NCBI GenBank assembly: GCA_017452895.1
Contig: JAFTLE010000064.1
Span: forward strand, 1-40,381
Origin: Clostridia bacterium
GTDB lineage: Bacteria; Bacillota; Clostridia; Oscillospirales; CAG-272
Direction of reading: 5' to 3'
Length of the DNA stretch: 40,381 nt
Each line of letters opens with the position of its first letter. The stretch's first letter is position 1. This document shows positions 1,711 to 39,135 of this stretch, piece after piece. The notes beneath the pieces were generated by a model that did not search any database, had not been told where the DNA came from, and saw only the letters and a program-made list of their open reading frames with translations. The translations under genes and the position numbers were made by a program.

Positions 1711-2951
1711 CAGAGCGTAAAGTCGGCGAGGCGCACCTCGCGCTGCTCCGATCTCTCCATATCACGCAGGGCGGCAACCCCCGTGTCGATCTCGTTGTCG
1801 CCGAGGATGAGCGTGTAGCGCGCTCCCTTCTTGTTGGCGTATTTCATCTGTGCCTTCAGGCTACGGCCCATCAGGTCGCATTCCACGATATGCCCCTCAC
1901 GGCGCAGTCGCTCGGTGATGCCGAGGGCGCACTCCGCCGCACGCGCACCGAGCGCCGCGATATAAAGCACGGGGCGGGCAGGCTCGATGTCCGCCGTGCC
2001 GCACTCACGCATCGCAAGCACAAGGCGGGTCAGACCCATCGCAAATCCGATGCCGGGGAGCGCAGGGCCGCCCAGCTCCTCAACGAGTCCGTCGTAACGG
2101 CCGCCGCCGCAGACCGTGCTCTGCGCGCCGATGCCCTCGGCAACGAACTCAAACACGGTGCGGGTATAGTAGTCAAGACCGCGCACGATCGCGGGGTCGA
2201 TCACATACTCCACGCCCATCGCGTCAAGCATACGGCAGAGACTGTCGAAATGCGCGCGGCAGTCGGGGCAGAGATGGTCAAGCGTCCGCGGTGCCGCCGC
2301 GGCAAGCGCGGCGCACTCGGGATTCTTGCAATCGAGCAGGCGAAGCGGGTTGGTCACGAGACGCTTTTTGCAGGTGTCGCAGATCTCGCTTTCGTGCGAC
2401 TTGTAGTACTCAACGAGCGCACCGCGATAATTGGGTCGGCAGGACTTACAGCCGATCGAATTGAGGTGCAGCTTCACGTTTTTGAGCCCCAAGCGGCGCA
2501 AAACGCTCGCCGCAAGCGCGATCGAGGTCGCGTCGGCGGCAGGGGAATCCGCGCCGAACATCTCGGTGCCGAATTGGAAAAATTCACGGCTGCGCCCCGC
2601 CTGCGGTGCCTCGTGGCGGAAGCAGTTGATAATATAATAATACTTCAGCGGCATCGGATCGCCGTACCTGCCGTTTTCGATCAGCGCGCGCGCAACAGAG
2701 GCGGTTCCCTCAGGCCGCAGGGTGATCGAGCGACCCTCGTCGCGGTCGGCGAAGGTATACATCTCCTTTTGCACAACGTCGGTCGTGTCGCCGACACCGC
2801 GCACGAACAGCTCGGTATTCTCAAAGGTAGGCGTACGGATCTCGCCGAAGCCGTACTTCTCCGCCTCCTCCCGCATGATCCCCTCCATATAACGGAACAG
2901 GGGGGTCTCCTCGGGTAAAATGTCCATCGTGCCTTTAATCTTCTGTATCAT
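1710..2951 (-). CDS. hisS: Histidyl-tRNA synthetase
   Basis: Class II synthetase of 413 residues that charges tRNA-His in the cytoplasm. Seen in order: the N-terminal 'KIKGTMDILPEE', class II motif 2 ('REFFQFGTEMFG'), a middle insertion, the histidine-specific 'VRGLDYYTRTVFEF' and 'CGGGRYDGL' motifs, motif 3 ('GIGFAMGLTRLVL') and an anticodon-binding domain over about the last 90 residues. The insertion carries cysteine pairs (GCKSC, CDTC, CKNPEC, CPDC) that probably bind zinc, as in other clostridial HisRS. The ATG lies inside the 3' end of mrnC (17-base overlap) with 'GGACAAAACG' as weak Shine-Dalgarno. No T-box leader is seen before it; expression should follow the upstream repressor/mrnC transcript. 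Confidence 0.97.
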   Translation of the reverse strand: MIQKIKGTMDILPEETPLFRYMEGIMREEAEKYGFGEIRTPTFENTELFVRGVGDTTDVVQKEMYTFADRDEGRSITLRPEGTASVARALIENGRYGDPMPLKYYYIINCFRHEAPQAGRSREFFQFGTEMFGADSPAADATSIALAASVLRRLGLKNVKLHLNSIGCKSCRPNYRGALVEYYKSHESEICDTCKKRLVTNPLRLLDCKNPECAALAAAAPRTLDHLCPDCRAHFDSLCRMLDAMGVEYVIDPAIVRGLDYYTRTVFEFVAEGIGAQSTVCGGGRYDGLVEELGGPALPGIGFAMGLTRLVLAMRECGTADIEPARPVLYIAALGARAAECALGITERLRREGHIVECDLMGRSLKAQMKYANKKGARYTLILGDNEIDTGVAALRDMERSEQREVRLADFTL

Positions 2952-3324
2952 CGTTTTGTCCTTCCATGCTTAAAAGCGCGTCGATGCGCTCGTAATTTCC
3001 AAGGTAATAGTGCATCCCCAGCACGCACTCAAGTCCGGTTGCCGCCCGATAGTCGGCACCGCTCGTATGCTTCGGCGTTTGCAGATGCTTGTGATTTGCG
3101 CCGCGGCGGAAAACATCCGCCTCAAGCTCTGTAAAGTATGGTTTGCATTTTTCGGCAAGCCGCGCCTGCGCGGTCGCCGTAATATAGGTCTGCGTTTGGC
3201 GGTTCAGCTCGCCCGATCTCGGAATGCCTCGGCGCACCAGATGTGCCCTGATATAAAGGCTATGCACCGCATCCCCGAGGAAGGCGAGCGCCTCAACGCT
3301 CGGCAGCTCGTTTTGCCCGTTCAT
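2935..3324 (-). CDS. mrnC: Mini-ribonuclease III (23S rRNA maturation)
   Basis: A 129-residue protein, the length expected of Mini-III, an RNase III catalytic domain without the double-stranded-RNA-binding domain that trims 23S rRNA precursor ends in Bacillota. The signature 'ALAFLGDAVHSLYIR' holds catalytic Asp18, and the second acidic motif is 'TGLECVLGMHYYLGN' near residue 100. The basic central stretch 'RRGANHKHLQTPKH' is typical of the family. It starts 19 bases after the stop of the repressor gene, with 'GAAAGAGGAAAACGGT' before the ATG, and overlaps hisS, so all three are probably on one transcript. In other Bacillota mrnC usually follows cysS; here it precedes hisS. Confidence 0.93.
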   Translation of the reverse strand: MNGQNELPSVEALAFLGDAVHSLYIRAHLVRRGIPRSGELNRQTQTYITATAQARLAEKCKPYFTELEADVFRRGANHKHLQTPKHTSGADYRAATGLECVLGMHYYLGNYERIDALLSMEGQNDDTED

Positions 3325-3343
3325 ACCGTTTTCCTCTTTCGCC

Positions 3344-3922
3344 TCATTCTACGTGCGCGTGAAAGGCAACCACCTTGCCGAAAATACGCACGCGCTCGCG
3401 CTCACGCCCGACGTAGACCGTGGGGGCAATGCGCGGATTCTCGGACTTTAAGATCAGCTGCCGATGCTCGGGGTCCTGATACACGCGGCGCAAGAGTACG
3501 CCGTCGCCCACCGACAGCGCGGCAAGCTCACCGCCGCCGTAACGCTCACAGCGGCAAAGATATAAAAGGTCGCCGTCACAGATGCGGCCGCCCGTCATCC
3601 CCTCGCCCACAGCGTACAGACAAAAGTCGACGCGTCCGTCAGCGGTATGCCCCGAATCGCGGTAGATCGGCTGACCCGCCGCGTCAAGCCCGGACAAAAG
3701 CGGCAATCCGTCACCGCACCGCTCCTCGGTGAGCGTCAATAGCTCCGAGGGTGTCGTGCCCAGCGCCTCAGCAATCGCGGGTATGCGGTCAAGATAGATG
3801 CTGATGATCCCCTTCTCATAGCGGGAAACCGTCTGCTTCGTCGTGCCAAGACGGGTGGCAAGCTCCTCCAGCGTCATTCCGCGCAAAAGGCGAAGCTCCT
3901 TAATTTTTTCTCCAATCTCCAT
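3344..3922 (-). CDS. Phage CI/LexA-type repressor with substituted protease residues
   Basis: A 192-residue two-domain regulator. Residues 1-65 are an XRE helix-turn-helix ('GMTLEELATRLGTTKQTVSRYEKG'); residues 95-188 match the S24/LexA C-terminal fold (motif region 'AVGEGMTGGRICDGDLLYL', then 'LLRRVYQD', 'LILKSENPRIAP', 'VRIFGKVVA'). In self-cleaving members the first motif reads G-D-S-M and a lysine precedes the Arg of the second; here the serine position is Gly108 and the lysine position is Arg145, so autoproteolysis is not expected. Dimerisation and DNA binding may remain. It is divergent from the phage-like module at 4197-5648 and upstream of mrnC-hisS on the same strand with no terminator between. 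It probably binds the four operator sites at 4042-4180; that is inference. Confidence 0.88.
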   Translation of the reverse strand: MEIGEKIKELRLLRGMTLEELATRLGTTKQTVSRYEKGIISIYLDRIPAIAEALGTTPSELLTLTEERCGDGLPLLSGLDAAGQPIYRDSGHTADGRVDFCLYAVGEGMTGGRICDGDLLYLCRCERYGGGELAALSVGDGVLLRRVYQDPEHRQLILKSENPRIAPTVYVGRERERVRIFGKVVAFHAHVE

Positions 3923-3987
3923 TTTGCTCCTTTATTCCCAAGACTCCGCTCGGGGCGTTCCTTCGTCAATTGGACCGTTCCTTTTCA

Positions 3988-4016
3988 ATTATACATAAAA
4001 ACAACGCGAGATGCAA
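3988..4016 (-). promoter_or_regulatory. Sigma-A-type promoter for the repressor-mrnC-hisS-ygiQ transcript
   Basis: On the minus strand there is TTGCAT at 4016-4011, a 17-base spacer and a perfect TATAAT at 3993-3988. Transcription would begin near 3981, giving a leader of about 60 bases before the repressor ATG at 3922. It lies back to back with the plus-strand promoter at 4047-4075, with their -35 boxes about 30 bases apart, the layout of a phage-type switch. Confidence 0.8.
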
Positions 4017-4041
4017 CACTTTTTCAAAAAAAATTCAAAAA

Positions 4042-4058
4042 GTCACTTGACAAGTTAC
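4042..4058. promoter_or_regulatory. Operator-like site 1 (GTCACTTGACAAGTTAC)
   Basis: A 17-bp imperfect palindrome fitting GTNAC-N7-GTNAC. It overlaps the -35 box of the rightward promoter. Presumed target of the divergent repressor at 3344-3922 (inference from position and repetition). Confidence 0.7.
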
Positions 4059-4075
4059 AAATTCTGTGTTATGAT
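4047..4075 (+). promoter_or_regulatory. Consensus promoter of the phage-like module
   Basis: TTGACA (4047-4052), 17-base spacer, TATGAT (4070-4075). The -35 box is buried inside the first operator-like site (4042-4058) and the second site (4079-4095) covers the expected start near 4082, so a bound repressor should block it. Confidence 0.8.
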
Positions 4076-4078
4076 GAA

Positions 4079-4095
4079 GTAACGCAATAGGTGAC
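4079..4095. promoter_or_regulatory. Operator-like site 2 (GTAACGCAATAGGTGAC)
   Basis: Second 17-bp match to GTNAC-N7-GTNAC, centred 37 bp from site 1 and lying over the predicted transcription start. Its right half AGGTGAC is identical to that of site 4. Confidence 0.7.
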
Positions 4096-4110
4096 TCCCT
4101 TTCTCCACAG

Positions 4111-4127
4111 GTCACCCGTTGCGTAAC
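4111..4127. promoter_or_regulatory. Operator-like site 3 (GTCACCCGTTGCGTAAC)
   Basis: Third match, centred 32 bp from site 2 and in the opposite orientation. Together sites 2 and 3 form a long inverted repeat with 18-base arms (4079-4096 and 4110-4127), 15 of 18 positions paired. Confidence 0.7.
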
Positions 4128-4130
4128 GGC

Positions 4131-4152
4131 GGCGGTCGTTCCGCCATTTTTT
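4131..4152 (+). terminator. Short GC hairpin with T-run in the module leader
   Basis: GGCGG, five-base loop, CCGCC, then A and six T. It lies about 50 bases downstream of the predicted start of the rightward promoter and before the first gene, so it could end a short leader RNA or act as an attenuator. The stem is only 5 bp, so strength is uncertain. Confidence 0.5.
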
Positions 4153-4163
4153 GAAGCATGAAG

Positions 4164-4180
4164 GTCACCTGATAGGTGAC
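4164..4180. promoter_or_regulatory. Operator-like site 4 (GTCACCTGATAGGTGAC)
   Basis: The best copy: 7-bp arms GTCACCT/AGGTGAC are perfectly palindromic around GAT. It ends 16 bases before the GTG of the first module gene at 4197, so a bound protein could act as a roadblock or cover the ribosome binding site DNA. Confidence 0.75.
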
Positions 4181-4196
4181 AAAGGGGTGAAAAAGA

Positions 4197-4475
4197 GTGT
4201 TTTATCAATATAAGGAGGAGGGTGTCGCCTGCCATCGCAATGCGGATGCGATCCTCTCATCGATTGCCGCCGTGCGCGCGGAAATTGCCGCGGCGGAGGC
4301 GGAGCGCGTGCGCCTGCTTGCCGCCGCGCGGCAAAGCGATCTTGGCGGGATCCGCTCGCTTGCCGCGCTCTGCGATCGGGCAGAGGATCTGCGCGCGCGG
4401 CTCTCGCTTCTCTCGGACCTGCTCGACGGGCTGAAGGACGAGCTTGCCGCAAGCCTTTATGCCACGGGGTGCTGA
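4197..4475 (+). CDS. Small coiled-coil protein, first gene of phage-like module
   Basis: 92 residues from a GTG at 4197, preceded by 'GGGGTG' about 7 bases upstream. After 'MFYQYKEEGVACHRNAD' the protein is almost entirely alpha-helical and rich in Ala, Leu, Arg and Glu with heptad-like spacing ('AVRAEIAAAEAERVRLLAAARQ', 'LRARLSLLSDLLDGLKDEL'), suggesting a coiled-coil dimer. I do not recognise a family. The stop TGA is followed one base later by the ATG of the replication-protein gene, so the two are translationally linked. An overlapping frame from a GTG at 4222 has a strong AGGAGG only three bases upstream, but it is short and has poor composition; I prefer 4197. Confidence 0.65.
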   Translation: MFYQYKEEGVACHRNADAILSSIAAVRAEIAAAEAERVRLLAAARQSDLGGIRSLAALCDRAEDLRARLSLLSDLLDGLKDELAASLYATGC

Positions 4476-4476
4476 G

Positions 4477-5217
4477 ATGCGCGAGAATATCATACTGCAC
4501 CTCGATGCGCGCGATCAGCTTGCGCTGCTCTCGGATGCCGACCGCGGCCGGCTGCTGCTCGCTCTGTTTGCCGCCGCCGCAGAGGAGCCGATCCCCGCGC
4601 TTTCGCCCCCTGCCGAGATCGCGCTCGCGTTTTTGATGCAACGGATGCGTTACGATACCGTAAAGTACGAGCAGATCTGTGCAAAGAAACGTGAAAAGGC
4701 AGTAGAGCGCTGGAAAAACGAGAGAAAACGCACGGCATCCATGCCGTTGTATGCCAACGGATGCAACGGCATGGATACCGATACGGATACGGGTACGGAT
4801 ACGGATCGTACACTCTCTCCCCCAATAGCCCCCGCAGGGGGCGCGCGTGTGAAAGGGGCAAAGCGAGAGGAGCCTCCCGAGTTTGCCGCCTTCCTCGCGG
4901 CGTATCCGAAGAAAATCAACCGTGATGCCGCACGCACGGCGTACGCAGCGGCGCGCGCCCGCGGCGTGACGCACGAAGAAATCCTTGCAGGTCTTTCGCG
5001 CGCAAAAAGCAGTGACAGCCGCTTCCTCGGCGATCCGCGCTATATCCCCACCGCCGCCAAGTGGCTCGATTCGGAGGGCTATCGCGACGAGCACGCGCCG
5101 CCAAGCCGCGACCGCCTCGGCAATTTCGATACCGACGAGGTATTTAACCGCGCCGTCGAGCGCAGTTACCAAAAATTCAAGGAGCAGGAAAAAGAGGGGA
5201 CGATTGCGACTTTTTGA
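4477..5217 (+). CDS. Phage-type replisome organizer-like protein (DUF6291-like N-terminus)
   Basis: 246 residues. I chose the ATG at 4477, immediately after the previous stop (TGA-G-ATG), over an in-frame ATG at 4444 inside the upstream gene. Residues 1-80 resemble the N-terminal domain of phage replication proteins related to DUF6291 (helical, 'LAFLMQRMRYDTVKYEQICAKKREKAVERW'). Then comes a low-complexity acidic linker, TDTDTGTDTD at about 100-109, encoded by a GATACG hexanucleotide repeat, and a C-terminal domain starting 'PPEFAAFLAAYPKKINRDAARTAY' that resembles the C-terminal part of other phage replisome organizers. Such proteins open the origin and recruit helicase loader. No helicase or loader gene follows, so replication function here is unproven. 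Confidence 0.65.
   Translation: MRENIILHLDARDQLALLSDADRGRLLLALFAAAAEEPIPALSPPAEIALAFLMQRMRYDTVKYEQICAKKREKAVERWKNERKRTASMPLYANGCNGMDTDTDTGTDTDRTLSPPIAPAGGARVKGAKREEPPEFAAFLAAYPKKINRDAARTAYAAARARGVTHEEILAGLSRAKSSDSRFLGDPRYIPTAAKWLDSEGYRDEHAPPSRDRLGNFDTDEVFNRAVERSYQKFKEQEKEGTIATF
4774..4803 (+). repeat. Hexanucleotide GATACG repeat inside the replication-protein gene
   Basis: Five consecutive 6-base units (GATACC, GATACG, GATACG, GGTACG, GATACG) encode the Thr-Asp linker. Unit changes keep the reading frame. In several phages the origin iterons sit inside the initiator gene at its linker, so this is a candidate origin element, by analogy only. Confidence 0.7.
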
Positions 5218-5227
5218 AAAAAGTCGC
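5206..5227 (+). repeat. Perfect hairpin across the stop codon of the replication gene
   Basis: GCGACTTTTT and AAAAAGTCGC are 10-base perfect arms around GA; the TGA stop is at the tip. The core CTTTTTGAAAAAAG (5210-5223) recurs exactly at 23473-23486 in another intergenic region, so this is part of a dispersed intergenic repeat rather than a simple terminator. Confidence 0.65.
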
Positions 5228-5280
5228 CCAAAAACCTTTATGCGGAAAGGAGAATGGGCTATCGCCCTTCCCATTATTCA

Positions 5281-5310
5281 TTTTTTTGCCAAGCTTTTTT
5301 TGCAAAAAAA
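5281..5310. repeat. T/A-rich hairpin, TTTTTTTGC...GCAAAAAAA
   Basis: Nine-base perfect arms around a 12-base loop containing CAAGC. Nearly the same sequence, with longer arms, is found at 18346-18373, so it belongs to a repeated intergenic element. It lies directly upstream of the ribosome binding site of the next gene. Confidence 0.6.
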
Positions 5311-5330
5311 GCGGGAGAAAGGAAAAAATT

Positions 5331-5648
5331 ATGAACTGTTACAAATTACCGCTTGACGTTGAGCGCACGGTTGCCGACCTCTGTCTTGGCTACCGTCGGC
5401 GAGAGAATCTTTTGCTGCGTGGCGAGCTGTTACCTGCGACCGCGGCGGAGTTTATGCGGATCAACGCCGCAATCGACGGCGCGCTGGAGGATGAGTGCGA
5501 GATTGCCATTCGCAAGACGATTCTTGAGGATCTCGCCGAACGCCGCGGCCACCGCCGCTCCCCCCTTGCCTTTATCAGCGTGAATACCTATAAGGAACGC
5601 AAAAAGCGCACGAAGTACAACATTGCCCGCAGGCTGTCCTTGATCTGA
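5331..5648 (+). CDS. Small phage-like protein, RinA/ArpU-type C-terminus
   Basis: 105 residues from the ATG at 5331, chosen because 'GGAGAAAGGAAAAAATT' gives a good ribosome binding site; an upstream in-frame ATG would read through the intergenic hairpins. Pattern: 'YKLPLDVERTVADLCLGYRRRENLLL' near the N-terminus, 'INAAIDGALEDECEIAIRKTILEDL' in the middle, and the ending 'NTYKERKKRTKYNIARRLSLI'. This resembles phage late-regulator proteins of the RinA/ArpU kind, which often end in a basic helix followed by a Y-x-v-A-k-x-L-g-l-I motif. The match is from memory and partial. It is the last gene of the module; nothing structural of a phage follows. Confidence 0.6.
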   Translation: MNCYKLPLDVERTVADLCLGYRRRENLLLRGELLPATAAEFMRINAAIDGALEDECEIAIRKTILEDLAERRGHRRSPLAFISVNTYKERKKRTKYNIARRLSLI

Positions 5649-5728
5649 TTTACGGATCGGATAAGTTCCACCGACCACTCCCACTTCATTTCCTTCGTGG
5701 ATCGCGGGGTGTCACTTATGCGGTATGG

Positions 5729-5766
5729 AACAAAGATCCCCCGTCATAAACGGGGGATCTTTTGTT
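5729..5766. terminator. Bidirectional terminator between the phage-like module and lysS
   Basis: Strong 15-bp stem with arms AACAAAGATCCCCCG and CGGGGGATCTTTTGTT (one extra T) around TCATAAA. It is placed to stop both rightward transcripts from 5648 and leftward transcripts leaving lysS at 5783. In the 80 bases between 5648 and this hairpin I see no gene. Confidence 0.8.
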
Positions 5767-5782
5767 CTTTCAGCCTCCGATC

Positions 5783-7297
5783 TTACACCTCGGGCTTCAT
5801 TGTGGGGAATAACAGCACGTCTCTGATTGATGCAGAGTCCGTCAAAAGCATAACCAAACGGTCCACACCGAAGCCAAGACCGCCCGTCGGGGGCATACCG
5901 TACTCCAGCGCGGTGACGAAATCGTAATCGACCTCGGCGCGGGTGTCGGGCTCGGCGGCGCGCTTCGCGGCGACCTGATCCTCGAAGCGCTGACGCTGGT
6001 CGATCGGGTCATTCAACTCGGAGAAGGCGTTGCCGAATTCGGTTGCGTTGATGAAGTACTCAAAGCGCTCGGTGAAGCGCGGATCCTCGGGCTTGCGCTT
6101 TGCAAGCGGGCTGTTCTCAACAGGATAGTCGTAGATGAAGGTCGGCTGAATCAGCTTCTCCTCAACGTATGCGTCGAAGAATTCGATCAGCACGGTGCCG
6201 CGCGTTGCGTCCTTCGGCACCTCGACGTGCTTCTCTTTTGCGACGGCGCGCGCTTCTTCATCGCTCTGCCAATCGTAGTAGTCGACACCTGCGTACTTTT
6301 TAACAGCCTCTGCCATCGTAAGACGCTCCCACTTGCCAAGGTCGATCTCGGTGCCCTGGTAGGTGATCTTCTTCGTGCCGAGGATCTTTTCCGCGAGCAG
6401 CTGATACAGCTCCTCGACCAGATCCATCATTCCGTAGTAGTCGGTGAATGCCTGATAAAGCTCAACCGTCGTGAACTCGGGGTTGTGCTTGGTGTCCATC
6501 CCCTCGTTGCGGAAGATACGGCCCACCTCGTAGACGCGGTCAAGACCGCCGACGATGAGTCGCTTCAGATAAAGCTCGGTCTCAATACGCAGATACATAT
6601 CAATATCCAGCGTGTTGTGATGCGTTGCAAACGAGCGGGCGGACGCGCCGATCTCCAGCGGAACGAGGATCGGGGTATCAACCTCAAGGAATCCGCGCGA
6701 ATCGAGATAATTTCTGATCTCGGTCATAATGCGCGAGCGGATACGGAAGGTATCGCGCACCTCGGGGTTAACGATCAGGTCAACGTAACGCTGACGGTAA
6801 CGCAGGTCGGTGTTGGTCAGACCGTGGAATTTCTCGGGCAGGGGGAGCAGCGACTTCGACAGAAGCGTGACCTCCAGCACGTGGATCGATACCTCACCCG
6901 TGCGGGTGCGGAACGCGTAGCCCTTCACACCGAGGATGTCGCCGACATCCCACTTCTTGAAGGCGGCGTAGGCTTCGTCGCCGATGTCGTTACGGCTGAC
7001 GTAAAGCTGGATCTTGCCCGTCGTGTCCTGAAGATGTGCGAAGGATGCCTTACCCATCACGCGGCGGCTGACCATACGGCCGCCGAGGCTGATGACGGTA
7101 TGCGGTGCCTCCTCCCCCTCGGGAACGGGATCGGGATCGACGAAATCACGCAGAACGTCAGCGGCATAGCTGTCTACGTCGTACTTCGTGATCTCATAGG
7201 GGTTTTTCCCCTCTTGCATTAAGACACGCAGCTTCTCACGGCGAACGAAAAGCTCGCTCGAGGTGTTCTGCTCGGTTGCCTGTACCTGTTCGCTCAT
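5783..7297 (-). CDS. lysS: Lysyl-tRNA synthetase, class II
   Basis: 504 residues, normal for LysS; it charges tRNA-Lys. An OB-fold anticodon-binding domain fills about residues 65-165 ('VISLGGRMVSRRVMGKASFAHLQD'), then 'LRYRQRYVDLIVN', motif 2 ('VGRIFRNEGMDTKHNPEFTT'), and motif 3 'GGLGFGVDRLVMLL' near the C-terminus. The start ATG overlaps the greA stop (ATGA at 7294-7297) and is preceded by AAGGAG. It is the last gene of the regulator-protease-greA-lysS operon and is followed by the terminator at 5729-5766. The greA-lysS pair is common in Clostridia. Confidence 0.98.
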   Translation of the reverse strand: MSEQVQATEQNTSSELFVRREKLRVLMQEGKNPYEITKYDVDSYAADVLRDFVDPDPVPEGEEAPHTVISLGGRMVSRRVMGKASFAHLQDTTGKIQLYVSRNDIGDEAYAAFKKWDVGDILGVKGYAFRTRTGEVSIHVLEVTLLSKSLLPLPEKFHGLTNTDLRYRQRYVDLIVNPEVRDTFRIRSRIMTEIRNYLDSRGFLEVDTPILVPLEIGASARSFATHHNTLDIDMYLRIETELYLKRLIVGGLDRVYEVGRIFRNEGMDTKHNPEFTTVELYQAFTDYYGMMDLVEELYQLLAEKILGTKKITYQGTEIDLGKWERLTMAEAVKKYAGVDYYDWQSDEEARAVAKEKHVEVPKDATRGTVLIEFFDAYVEEKLIQPTFIYDYPVENSPLAKRKPEDPRFTERFEYFINATEFGNAFSELNDPIDQRQRFEDQVAAKRAAEPDTRAEVDYDFVTALEYGMPPTGGLGFGVDRLVMLLTDSASIRDVLLFPTMKPEV

Positions 7298-7785
7298 TGA
7301 TGGTCTCCTTTTGCGCGGGTCACGTCGAGGATGTCGATGTGGTATTTCTTGTCACGGGGCAGCTCGACCTCAACCTTTTCGCCCGCGCGCTTACCCATCA
7401 GGGCAGCACCGATCGGGGAGACGTCGGAGATCTTGCCTGCGGCAGGGTCGGTACCGTAGGAGCCGACGATCTGATAGGTCAGATTCGCGTTCTTCTCGTG
7501 ATGGAACACCTTCACAAGAGAGCCAACGCTGATGACCGATGCGTCAAGCTCGCTCTCGTCAATGATCTTTGCCTTCGACAAGCGGTTTTCAAGCTCCAGC
7601 TTCTGATGGGCGAGCTTTGCCTGCTCCTGCTTTGCCTCATCGTACTCGCTGTTCTCGGACAAGTCGCCGTAGCTGCGTGCCGTCGAGATATCCTTCTTAT
7701 TCAGCTCGATCTTCTCGTTGATGTCCTGCAGCTCTTTTACCAGCTCGTCGTATTCTGCCTTTGTAAAATTAAGAATTTCTTCCAT
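7294..7785 (-). CDS. greA: Transcription elongation factor GreA
   Basis: 163 residues (family about 158). The N-terminal coiled coil that enters the RNA polymerase secondary channel carries the acidic tip in 'ARSYGDLSENSEYDEAKQEQ', with the Asp and Glu that help RNA polymerase cleave backtracked RNA. The C-terminal FKBP-like domain ends with 'SPIGAALMGKRAGEKVEVELP', the standard GreA signature. GAGGAGTTACGATC precedes the ATG. Only 32 bases separate it from the upstream protease gene, so it is probably co-transcribed, and it is coupled to lysS by a 4-base overlap. Confidence 0.97.
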   Translation of the reverse strand: MEEILNFTKAEYDELVKELQDINEKIELNKKDISTARSYGDLSENSEYDEAKQEQAKLAHQKLELENRLSKAKIIDESELDASVISVGSLVKVFHHEKNANLTYQIVGSYGTDPAAGKISDVSPIGAALMGKRAGEKVEVELPRDKKYHIDILDVTRAKGDHQ

Positions 7786-7817
7786 GATCGTAACTCCTCA
7801 CAAATTACTTATTGTTT

Positions 7818-9347
7818 TCATCTGTCTTTAAGCGCGTTATGCGCTGCCTGCAGCTGCGCGTCGTCAGCGTAGGTCAGCTTGTAGATGTTAATGCTCTTTG
7901 CCGTCTCGGAAAGCTCGACCGTAACGTCGGGCGTGATGCCCACACCGTCGTAGTTACCCGAATAGGGCGGCGTATAGTAGAAGGTCGTGAGGCTCAGAAG
8001 CGAGCCGTCGGTGTTGCCTTCCTGATCGACCTTCAGAATATTCTGCATGCCCGACTGACCGACGCCCTTGCCATAGGTCGTCGTTCCCATTACGGTCGCG
8101 TCGATCTTGCCCTTTGCGTCGTAGTCGCGGAGCGCGCCCGTAAAAAGCTCGCCCGCGGAGGCGGTATATTCGTTGGTCAGAACGACCATCGGCAGGTCGA
8201 TCTTATGATCGTTGAGGTAGCCGTCAAGATACGCCGCGTAATTCGGATCGGACTTGCCGACCAGATTCAGCACCGTGCTGACGGTATAGCTTTTCGTTTT
8301 ATAATTGAGATGCACGATCTCGCCCGCGGGCAGAATATATTCAAGCACCGCGACGACCGAATCGAGCAGTCCGCCGGGATTTGCACGCAGGTCGAAGACG
8401 ATGCTGTCAATCCCCTGGGCACACAGGGCGGTATACGCAGAAACGAACTGCGCGTAGGTGTTTTTGTCAAAGGATGTGATGCGGATATAGCCGACGTCGC
8501 CGTCGAGAACGCTGTGGTAGACCACCTTTTCGGTCACGATGGCGCGGGTAACGGTCATATCGATCCGCTTTCCGTCGCGCTCAACGGTAAAGGAGACGGC
8601 AGTGCCGACCTCCCCGCGCATCTTTTCGATCGCGGGATAATAGCCAAGCTCGGCGATGTCCTCCCCCCCCACGGCCACGAACAGATCGCCCGGCATCAGC
8701 CCCGCCTCGATCGCGGGGGTGTCGGGAAAGACGTTAAGCACCTCGATGTATCCGCTTGCGGTCAGCGTGACCGACACGCCAATGCCCGAATAGGTGCCCG
8801 TGATATTTTCCTCATAGCTCGGCTGATCCGCCTCGCTGTAATACGCGCCGTATTTGTCGCCGATGGCGTTGAGGTAACAGTTGACGAGCGTGGTGGTGAG
8901 GATCTCCTCATCCGCCGTGACCGCCGCCATCTTGTAATTGTTGATCATACGGGTGACGATCGCATCGGCGAGCGAGACGATATTTTTGAAGCTGCCGACG
9001 TAATGCTGCTTGTAGGTCACCTCGACCGAGCTGAGCTTATAAACGTTATACTCACACGCGGAAAGAAGCGTGCGGATCTCGTCGTAGGTGAGGGCGTAAT
9101 CCGCCGTCGTATCGTATTCCTCGCTGAAAAGGATGTCGGTCCCGATGCGTGAAAAGGCATCGGAGAGCGCCGTCCTGATCGCCGACACGCCCGAGGGCGA
9201 GGTCGTCCAATCATCGGTCTGCGGTTCATCGGGGAGGGACGAGGACGACATCGTCGGCGGCGAGTCGGGGGCGTCCGTGCAGGAAAAGAGTGAACCGCAA
9301 AGAAGAATGGCGAGGAGCAAAGAAAGTAACGCTTGCGTTTTTTTCAA
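7818..9347 (-). CDS. Carboxy-terminal processing protease (S41), lipoprotein, TTG start
   Basis: 509 residues. The signal peptide 'MKKTQALLSLLLAILLCGSLFSC' ends in a lipobox with Cys23, so it is anchored on the outer face of the membrane. Residues 182-270 are a PDZ domain ('GIGVSVTLTASGYIEVLNVF', 'AGLMPGDLFVAVGGEDI'). The S41 domain follows with 'RANPGGLLDSVV', nucleophile Ser397 in 'EYTASAGELF' and general-base Lys427 in 'TTTYGKGVGQ', both intact. The start is a TTG at 9347: the signal peptide begins there, GAGG lies 9 bases upstream, and no ATG is nearby. It follows the PucR-type regulator by 19 bases. In other bacteria CtpA-like proteases trim extracellular proteins; the substrate here is unknown. 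Confidence 0.92.
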   Translation of the reverse strand: MKKTQALLSLLLAILLCGSLFSCTDAPDSPPTMSSSSLPDEPQTDDWTTSPSGVSAIRTALSDAFSRIGTDILFSEEYDTTADYALTYDEIRTLLSACEYNVYKLSSVEVTYKQHYVGSFKNIVSLADAIVTRMINNYKMAAVTADEEILTTTLVNCYLNAIGDKYGAYYSEADQPSYEENITGTYSGIGVSVTLTASGYIEVLNVFPDTPAIEAGLMPGDLFVAVGGEDIAELGYYPAIEKMRGEVGTAVSFTVERDGKRIDMTVTRAIVTEKVVYHSVLDGDVGYIRITSFDKNTYAQFVSAYTALCAQGIDSIVFDLRANPGGLLDSVVAVLEYILPAGEIVHLNYKTKSYTVSTVLNLVGKSDPNYAAYLDGYLNDHKIDLPMVVLTNEYTASAGELFTGALRDYDAKGKIDATVMGTTTYGKGVGQSGMQNILKVDQEGNTDGSLLSLTTFYYTPPYSGNYDGVGITPDVTVELSETAKSINIYKLTYADDAQLQAAHNALKDR

Positions 9348-38850: not shown

Positions 38851-39135
38851 CTAACGCTTCAGACAATCGATCAGACGCAAAACGATCTCGCGTTCCTCGT
38901 TCTTCAAATCGGTGATGTCAACCGTCAGCCTGTCACTTGATGCCAAAAGATAATCCGCATTGACGTGAAATATCTTGGTCATTTCAACGATGTTTTGAAG
39001 GGATGGAGAGGACAGGGACATTTCCCAGGAATTCACTGCACTGCGCGAAATACCTAATCTCTGTGCCAGATCGGTCTGCGTCATACCCACCTTGTCGCGC
39101 AAATATTTGATCCTGTCAGCAATATTCAAAATCAT
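38851..39135 (-). CDS. Small XRE-family regulator
   Basis: 94 residues. Helix-turn-helix over residues 8-62 ('VGMTQTDLAQRLGISRSAVN' and 'SWEMSLSSPSLQNIVEMTKI'), then 'FHVNADYLLASSDRLTVDIT', typical of short chromosomal or phage-like repressors, and a C-terminal helix that may dimerise. AAGGGGAACGGT precedes the ATG. It diverges from the repeat-rich lipoprotein gene, and a perfect 16-bp palindrome lies between their promoters, so it probably represses both. Confidence 0.88.
   Translation of the reverse strand: MILNIADRIKYLRDKVGMTQTDLAQRLGISRSAVNSWEMSLSSPSLQNIVEMTKIFHVNADYLLASSDRLTVDITDLKNEEREIVLRLIDCLKR

Follow-up and report, generated by a model that had tools for sequence, protein, structure and literature searches.

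The 40,381-nucleotide contig JAFTLE010000064.1 of a gut Clostridia bacterium (called the window below, meaning the whole stretch that was analysed) carries a divergent unit between the hisS-mrnC genes and lysS, in which a CI-type repressor is read leftward and three genes, here named p92, p246 and p105, are read rightward. With a probability of roughly 55%, this is the stand-alone version, in this species, of a genus-wide chromosomal switch derived from a phage; the prediction is that its repressor binds four operators, holds off p92-p246-p105 and likely does not cleave itself after DNA damage. The unit occupies a 2.3-kb stretch of the chromosome, and all of its parts lie where an earlier note, made from the letters of the window alone, had placed them; p92 belongs to the unit though it was not named there. 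The genome containing the window comprises 1.4 Mb and is 84% complete.

Operators and promoters

The 274-bp intergenic region of the unit contains four perfect GTNAC-N7-GTNAC sites, compared with 0.08 expected at up to one mismatch, which bears out the set of operators proposed in the earlier note. O1 (GTCACTTGACAAGTTAC, 4042..4058) overlaps the -35 box of the rightward promoter, O2 (GTAACGCAATAGGTGAC, 4079..4095) follows directly after its -10 box, O3 (GTCACCCGTTGCGTAAC, 4111..4127) shows the GTNAC-N7-GTNAC pattern and O4 (GTCACCTGATAGGTGAC, 4164..4180) is a perfect 7-3-7 palindrome. At no more than one mismatch, GTNACNTNNNANGTNAC is found at three sites in the 40-kb window, all of them inside 4042-4180; the expectation is 0.61 sites, and 3 of 100 shuffles reach three.

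The rightward promoter (TTGACA-N17-TATGAT, 4047..4075, plus strand) matches 11 of the 12 consensus bases and was detected by a promoter scan, which returned two promoter-like sites versus 0.7 in shuffles. The probable repressor promoter (TTGCAT-N17-TATAAT, 3988..4016, minus strand) was read by eye from the sequence and was not reported by the scan, so of the divergent promoters described earlier the rightward one is confirmed and the leftward one stays a reading by eye. Between O3 and O4, a terminator-like hairpin is located in the leader (4128..4145, plus strand, reaching 4152 with its T run). It is a possible attenuator, and most relatives lack it.

The same layout was found in 31 loci in which c7 or c2 (in the window, p92) lies at most 1.6 kb from the repressor, c2 being the family founded here on p105 and c7 a family of sister loci that p92 resembles. 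Their intergenic regions contain 77 operator-like sites at up to one mismatch, compared with 2.5 in shuffles. An operator lies on the -35 box in 27 of the 31 loci, and another directly after the -10 box in 18. The strict pattern RTNACTTGACARGTNAC, derived from part of the same loci in which it was then counted, occurs 39 times in 37 of the 69 genus genomes, its reversed form not once, and 37 of the 39 sites are upstream of the unit's c7 or c2.

Both remaining sites are away from the unit. In G102, a full operator overlaps the TTGACA-N17-TATAAT promoter of a Y-family DNA polymerase gene (PF00817; locus L266, contig C34, about 6070-7629). In G105, a full operator on the minus strand stands in a prophage-like region between a Clp-protease-like gene and the small and large terminase genes (L265, contig C26, about 5903-7925). 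Furthermore, promoters carrying the operator right half TTGACAAGTNAC and missing the left half-site were seen in three genomes (L277, L278 and L282), where they lead TerB-type genes followed by a BrxC/D-type ATPase gene.

Distribution across the genus

Relatives of p105 (c2) were detected in 55 of the 69 genus genomes (58 matches), as a single copy in 52 and with a second copy in three. A repressor relative lies within 2.5 kb of c2 in 44 of these 55 genomes; a repressor match as such was obtained in 68 of the 69 genomes under a loose criterion that any helix-turn-helix (HTH) could satisfy. Outside the genus, c2 was present in one genome of an order sample of 295, in which three further matches are genus members, and in a class sample of 391 genomes it matched solely in the window's own genome. 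The matching loci come from Clostridia and Oscillospiraceae genomes, many of them from the guts of deer, goat, sheep and yak.

Several arrangements exist side by side. In 30 genomes, c2 lies at most 2.5 kb from the repressor and at most 4.5 kb from groEL. In 14, it stands beside the repressor with groEL not nearby, G038 among them running into spoIIAA-spoIIAB at the contig end. In three, c2 is near groEL with the repressor not within 2.5 kb (G013 is cut off by a contig end), and in eight c2 is found elsewhere only. Seven of these eight have one site in common, which adjoins a class II tRNA synthetase gene (by Pfam for L253 only; the end of L259 is cut by the contig). One locus, L178, possibly of this genus, has a weak c2 match of 25 bits beside its repressor.

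This sharing of repressor, operator and p105 family across the genus speaks for domestication, which the earlier note had offered as one of its options; its others, the remains of a prophage or a satellite-like unit, fit less well. So does the recent arrival that it considered, given the genus-wide sharing, the conserved flanks in two sets of species (flanking genes in common in G004, G019 and G020, and three in G036 and G104, all stand-alone units) and the existence of relatives with 75-96% identity. The genes of the unit seem to have outlasted speciation, since p105 relatives with 96, 84 and 75% and a p246 relative with 79% identity are known, the two families having been compared singly and not as neighbours.

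A mobile or satellite-like unit that landed only recently between mrnC and lysS is improbable. It would account for the absence of a repressor relative within 1.5 kb in all 29 further mrnC loci examined (61 other genomes have mrnC) and of the unit within 1.5 kb in all 29 further lysS loci examined, where L068 gave a 35-residue HTH match only, and also for the lack of full-length p246 relatives in the 59 genus genomes searched (four partial). Yet no integrase or transposase gene is present among the nine neighbouring genes scanned, there are no attachment-like repeats, and an empty site is not demonstrable because mrnC and lysS are not adjacent in the relatives examined either.

The repressor and the loss of the Ser-Lys dyad

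The repressor (3344..3922, minus strand, 192 amino acids) has an Xre-type HTH and an S24 fold, both above cut-off, the S24 domain being degenerate. The matches to HTH_3 (E 1.5e-15), Peptidase_S24 (E 4.5e-10) and phrog_4 'transcriptional repressor' (E 3.4e-29) agree with its earlier description as CI/LexA-like, and its sequence also matches the LexA structure 3k2z (E 8.3e-5). In the HTH, the median identity is 51% to genus repressors versus 33% to 13 viral ones.

Repressors of this kind are thought to require a Ser-Lys dyad for self-cutting after DNA damage, and Ala-Gly is a usual scissile site of self-cleaving S24 repressors. In the window, Gly108 and Arg145 occupy the positions of the sisters' catalytic Ser and Lys, and Ala82-Gly83 aligns with their Cys-Gly scissile site. 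With the dyad gone, the window repressor has likely lost the ability to open the switch by cleaving itself when DNA is damaged, and on this sequence evidence it is likely a damage-blind lock on a replication-type gene. Dyad and Cys-Gly are intact in 36 of 40 genus repressor rows (one row per genome); the dyad is altered in the window, G036, G104 and G005, all of them stand-alone forms. For this alignment and the trees, rows below 170 or above 250 amino acids were dropped, and 13 of 39 viral repressors and 19 of 80 repressors from the genome contigs were used. A DUF6291 gene is located between c7 and c2 in three of the four dyad-less loci, and in G015, where the dyad is intact, the gene at this place weakly resembles Phage_rep_org_N (E 7.8e-4, below cut-off).

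The products of the rightward genes

The first rightward gene encodes p92 (4197..4475, plus strand, 92 amino acids, GTG start), a c7-like helical protein. Against the c7 profile of the sister loci it scores 30.6 bits, the best of 2000 shuffles reaching 10.2; both are coiled-coil-like, for which shuffling controls only in part.

The second gene product, p246 (4477..5217, plus strand, 246 amino acids), carries DUF6291 at its N-terminus (E 1.1e-13) and matches three PHROGs annotated as 'replication initiation' or 'primosomal', namely phrog_270 (E 2e-13), phrog_9327 (E 2.9e-11) and phrog_9474 (E 1.1e-8), two of them over the C-terminal half. The replisome-organizer-like gene of the earlier note is thereby corroborated. 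A search of a large protein collection returned p246 itself and one relative, the one with 79% identity. Over 29 residues, its C-terminal tail shares 69% identity with the tail of a DnaB_2-domain protein of the host (L283, G000:C84, 4922-6076), and the motif GNFDTD..FNRAV.RSY.KFK (window 5112-5200) is common to both. Because of this resemblance, p246 would be expected to act at replication initiation.

For p105 (5331..5648, plus strand, 105 amino acids), searches of Pfam, PHROGs and NCBIfam with a threshold of E 1 gave no match, and the large protein collection contains three relatives at E 0.001. The predicted structure consists of five helices with a predicted local distance difference test (pLDDT) score of 96. 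The profile comparison gave 1% for an ArpU-like set, which itself falls short of the family cut-off and includes sigma factors. The RinA/ArpU assignment made earlier for p105 was therefore not confirmed; the label relies on the place of the gene in two prophage-like regions and on weak hints from structure, and membership is putative.

Joined form with the sigma-factor and chaperonin cluster

In the joined loci whose gene order was determined, it is repressor, then divergently c7, c2, SpoIIAA (STAS), SpoIIAB (HATPase), SigF (sigma-70), GroES and GroEL; the domains were checked in G035, and the other loci were assigned by profiles built from these clusters. G100 and G001 have an extra gene between repressor and c7. 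The SpoIIAA, SpoIIAB and SigF genes are directly 5' of groES-groEL in the genus genomes whose gene order was determined, with or without the switch (L070-L088, L126). In the window's genome, this cluster is located on another contig with no repressor beside it.

Evidence for a phage origin of the switch

Prophage-like regions and viral contigs both support a phage origin. Relatives of p105 lie in prophage-like regions of three genus genomes. In G035 and G057 they stand directly upstream of the small and large terminase genes, a frequent place of late regulators, and in G011 the relative lies at the opposite end of a run of genes starting next to CI-like genes and a primosomal gene that resembles p246. 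The module is nevertheless not always part of full prophages, as prophage-like regions were seen for three of the 58 p105-family matches.

In total, 50 viral stretches contain GTNACTTGACAAGTNAC, and in eight of them a CI-like HTH protein (at least 68 bits) is encoded within 400 bp of the site. Each of the eight has two perfect sites within 450 bp and a promoter-like -35 that runs on as TTGACARGTYAC, 32-41 bp before the first site (32 bp in the window). For comparison, 80 of at least 120 stretches with the reversed pattern yielded four weak matches not exceeding 43 bits, of which one overlaps the site. Among the genes near the repressor in 39 viral repressor loci found by genus-profile matches, no c7 or c2 was detected; a p246-like gene was present in two.

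These viral loci also bear on an immunity function, in which an uncleavable repressor is kept because it shuts down temperate phages that enter the cell and rely on the same operators, the divergent genes being passengers or sensors. A repressor that DNA damage does not remove would give standing immunity, and in the eight viral contigs the operators are similarly spaced and the recognition helix of the CI-like repressors resembles that of the genus. We nevertheless regard this explanation as doubtful: with 50 stretches versus at least 120 for the reversed pattern, viral contigs show no excess of the operator, p246 and p105 are kept intact without being needed for immunity, and a phage of this genus with the operator was not identified apart from the one prophage-like region in G105.

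Weighing the evidence for a domesticated switch

Several observations weigh against a domesticated, genus-wide switch with a damage-blind branch in the window. No p105 relative is found in 14 of the 69 genus genomes, 32 of the 69 are without the strict operator, and G104 lacks the O1 site at the stringency used. G005 has no replication-type gene, so dyad loss and such a gene are not always paired. The dyad and Cys-Gly are intact in 19 other genome rows and 13 viral rows as well as in six LexA rows, but the first two counts are biased because those loci were found using motifs at the Ser site, which slightly lowers the odds of the wider proposal given below. The four dyad-less repressors cluster with a Shimodaira-Hasegawa-like approximate likelihood ratio test (SH-aLRT) support of 93, yet on long branches, and when the other three are left out, the genus rows are no longer gathered on one side of a branch and the placement of the window repressor becomes unsure. 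Finally, a controlling inverted repeat of chaperone expression (CIRCE)-like element is present at groES in 13 of 14 loci tested. A single transcript for the joined cluster is for this reason not claimed, and the chaperonin part may be independent of the switch.

The long branches of all four dyad-less repressors would also suit decay of the domesticated switch into a relic, with dyad loss as one step on the way; the missing C-terminal half in the DUF6291 genes of G036 and G104 and the eroded operator of G104 point in the same direction. The window itself looks different, with four intact frames of coding-like codon use, four perfect operators and relatives of p105 and p246 at 75-96% identity, and decay is judged unlikely, a shade more so than immunity.

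Under the preferred domesticated switch, the repressor would sit on O1-O4 and block the promoter at 4047-4075, forming an autoregulated lock. Sister repressors with intact dyad and Cys-Gly would be cleaved with RecA's help after DNA damage, which would tie c7-c2 and, in the 30 genomes with the joined arrangement, perhaps the SpoIIAA-SpoIIAB-SigF-GroESL cluster to such damage. The window switch would open only on titration, dilution or degradation of its repressor, for example when a phage enters and brings operators or an antirepressor of its own; any p246 then produced would work at host replication via its DnaB_2-like tail.

A wider proposal is more tentative, and we put it at somewhat below even odds. 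A phage lysogeny switch may have been taken over genus-wide as a DNA-damage gate before the SpoIIAA-SpoIIAB-SigF partner-switch and GroESL. The window branch may then have lost the self-cutting residues and become a damage-blind lock on a replisome organiser with the tail of a host initiation protein, turning an SOS switch into replication or superinfection control. The genus appears to be another one in which a phage repressor was taken over as a host regulator. Since its stand-alone, cluster-adjoining, split and peptidase-dead states occur side by side, the way in which a phage switch becomes a host regulon can be tested directly. Should the joined form respond to DNA damage, an SOS-type signal would be linked to the SigF partner-switch, a link for which no paper was found in the literature search, which covered its sources in part.

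Coding potential and neighbouring genes

All four genes of the unit are coding-like by codon use, and their reading frames are intact, as noted earlier; two overlapping long frames that were tested do not score as coding. By Pfam, the neighbours are housekeeping genes: radical SAM, HisRS, Ribonuclease_3 (MrnC-type) and a class II D/K/N tRNA synthetase (LysS), as well as GreA, S41 peptidase, PucR-type HTH, RNA methyltransferase and PrmA. No integrase, transposase, packaging or structural genes were found among the four unit genes and nine neighbours, the profile scan covering the window up to 12.2 kb and one gene within 12.2-40 kb. Within 2900-6300, no direct-repeat pair resembling attachment sites was found around the unit. 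Both results agree with the earlier note.

The repressor stop is located 19 bp upstream of the mrnC start (gap 3325-3343), both genes being on the minus strand, and transcription from the repressor promoter could therefore extend into mrnC-hisS in this species. A terminator-like hairpin lies between p105 and lysS (5732..5762, plus strand). A second short Xre-type HTH gene is present in the window at 38851-39135 on the minus strand (HTH_3, E 1.1e-14).

Comparison with known systems

The CI switches of temperate phages (L341, L342, L349, L358, L361, L369, L381 and L389) share with the unit a CI-like repressor, the TTGACARGTYAC promoter and the spacing of the sites. In contrast, these viral contigs carry a small gene of 65-81 amino acids in place of c7, with no c7 or c2 relative detected, and seven of their eight repressors are short (111-151 amino acids as read), L381 being full length with S24. 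For p105, no sequence or profile match to the late regulators RinA and ArpU was obtained in the searches above. The non-canonical phage-like LexA of Bacteroidetes (PMC8565304) is, in the parts of the sources available, likewise a phage-like repressor serving a host response; it governs a large SOS network (summarised in PMC13148647), whereas the genus switch has one main target unit.

The closest known case, judged from the available parts of its description, is FddR (PMC13148647), an S24 repressor of phage type that has been co-opted throughout the genus Francisella. Its key residues are intact, its operator is the palindrome GTG-N11-CAC, and the gene divergent from it has no known function. 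In some species, a DinB-type polymerase is under the same site, and in two, DinB is found beside a paralogue (PMC13148647). The likeness lies in the anatomy of co-opted repressor, divergent gene and palindromic operator: genus-wide presence with one divergent partner and a conserved palindrome at the shared promoter region were both found here. The residues for RecA-aided cleavage, intact in FddR, are absent from the window repressor and present in 36 of the 40 genus rows, and the operator sequence is another. Neighbours such as a replisome organiser, SigF and GroESL are not described for FddR in the portions of PMC13148647 consulted. Relative to FddR, the sigma-factor and chaperonin neighbours and the peptidase-dead branch are new.

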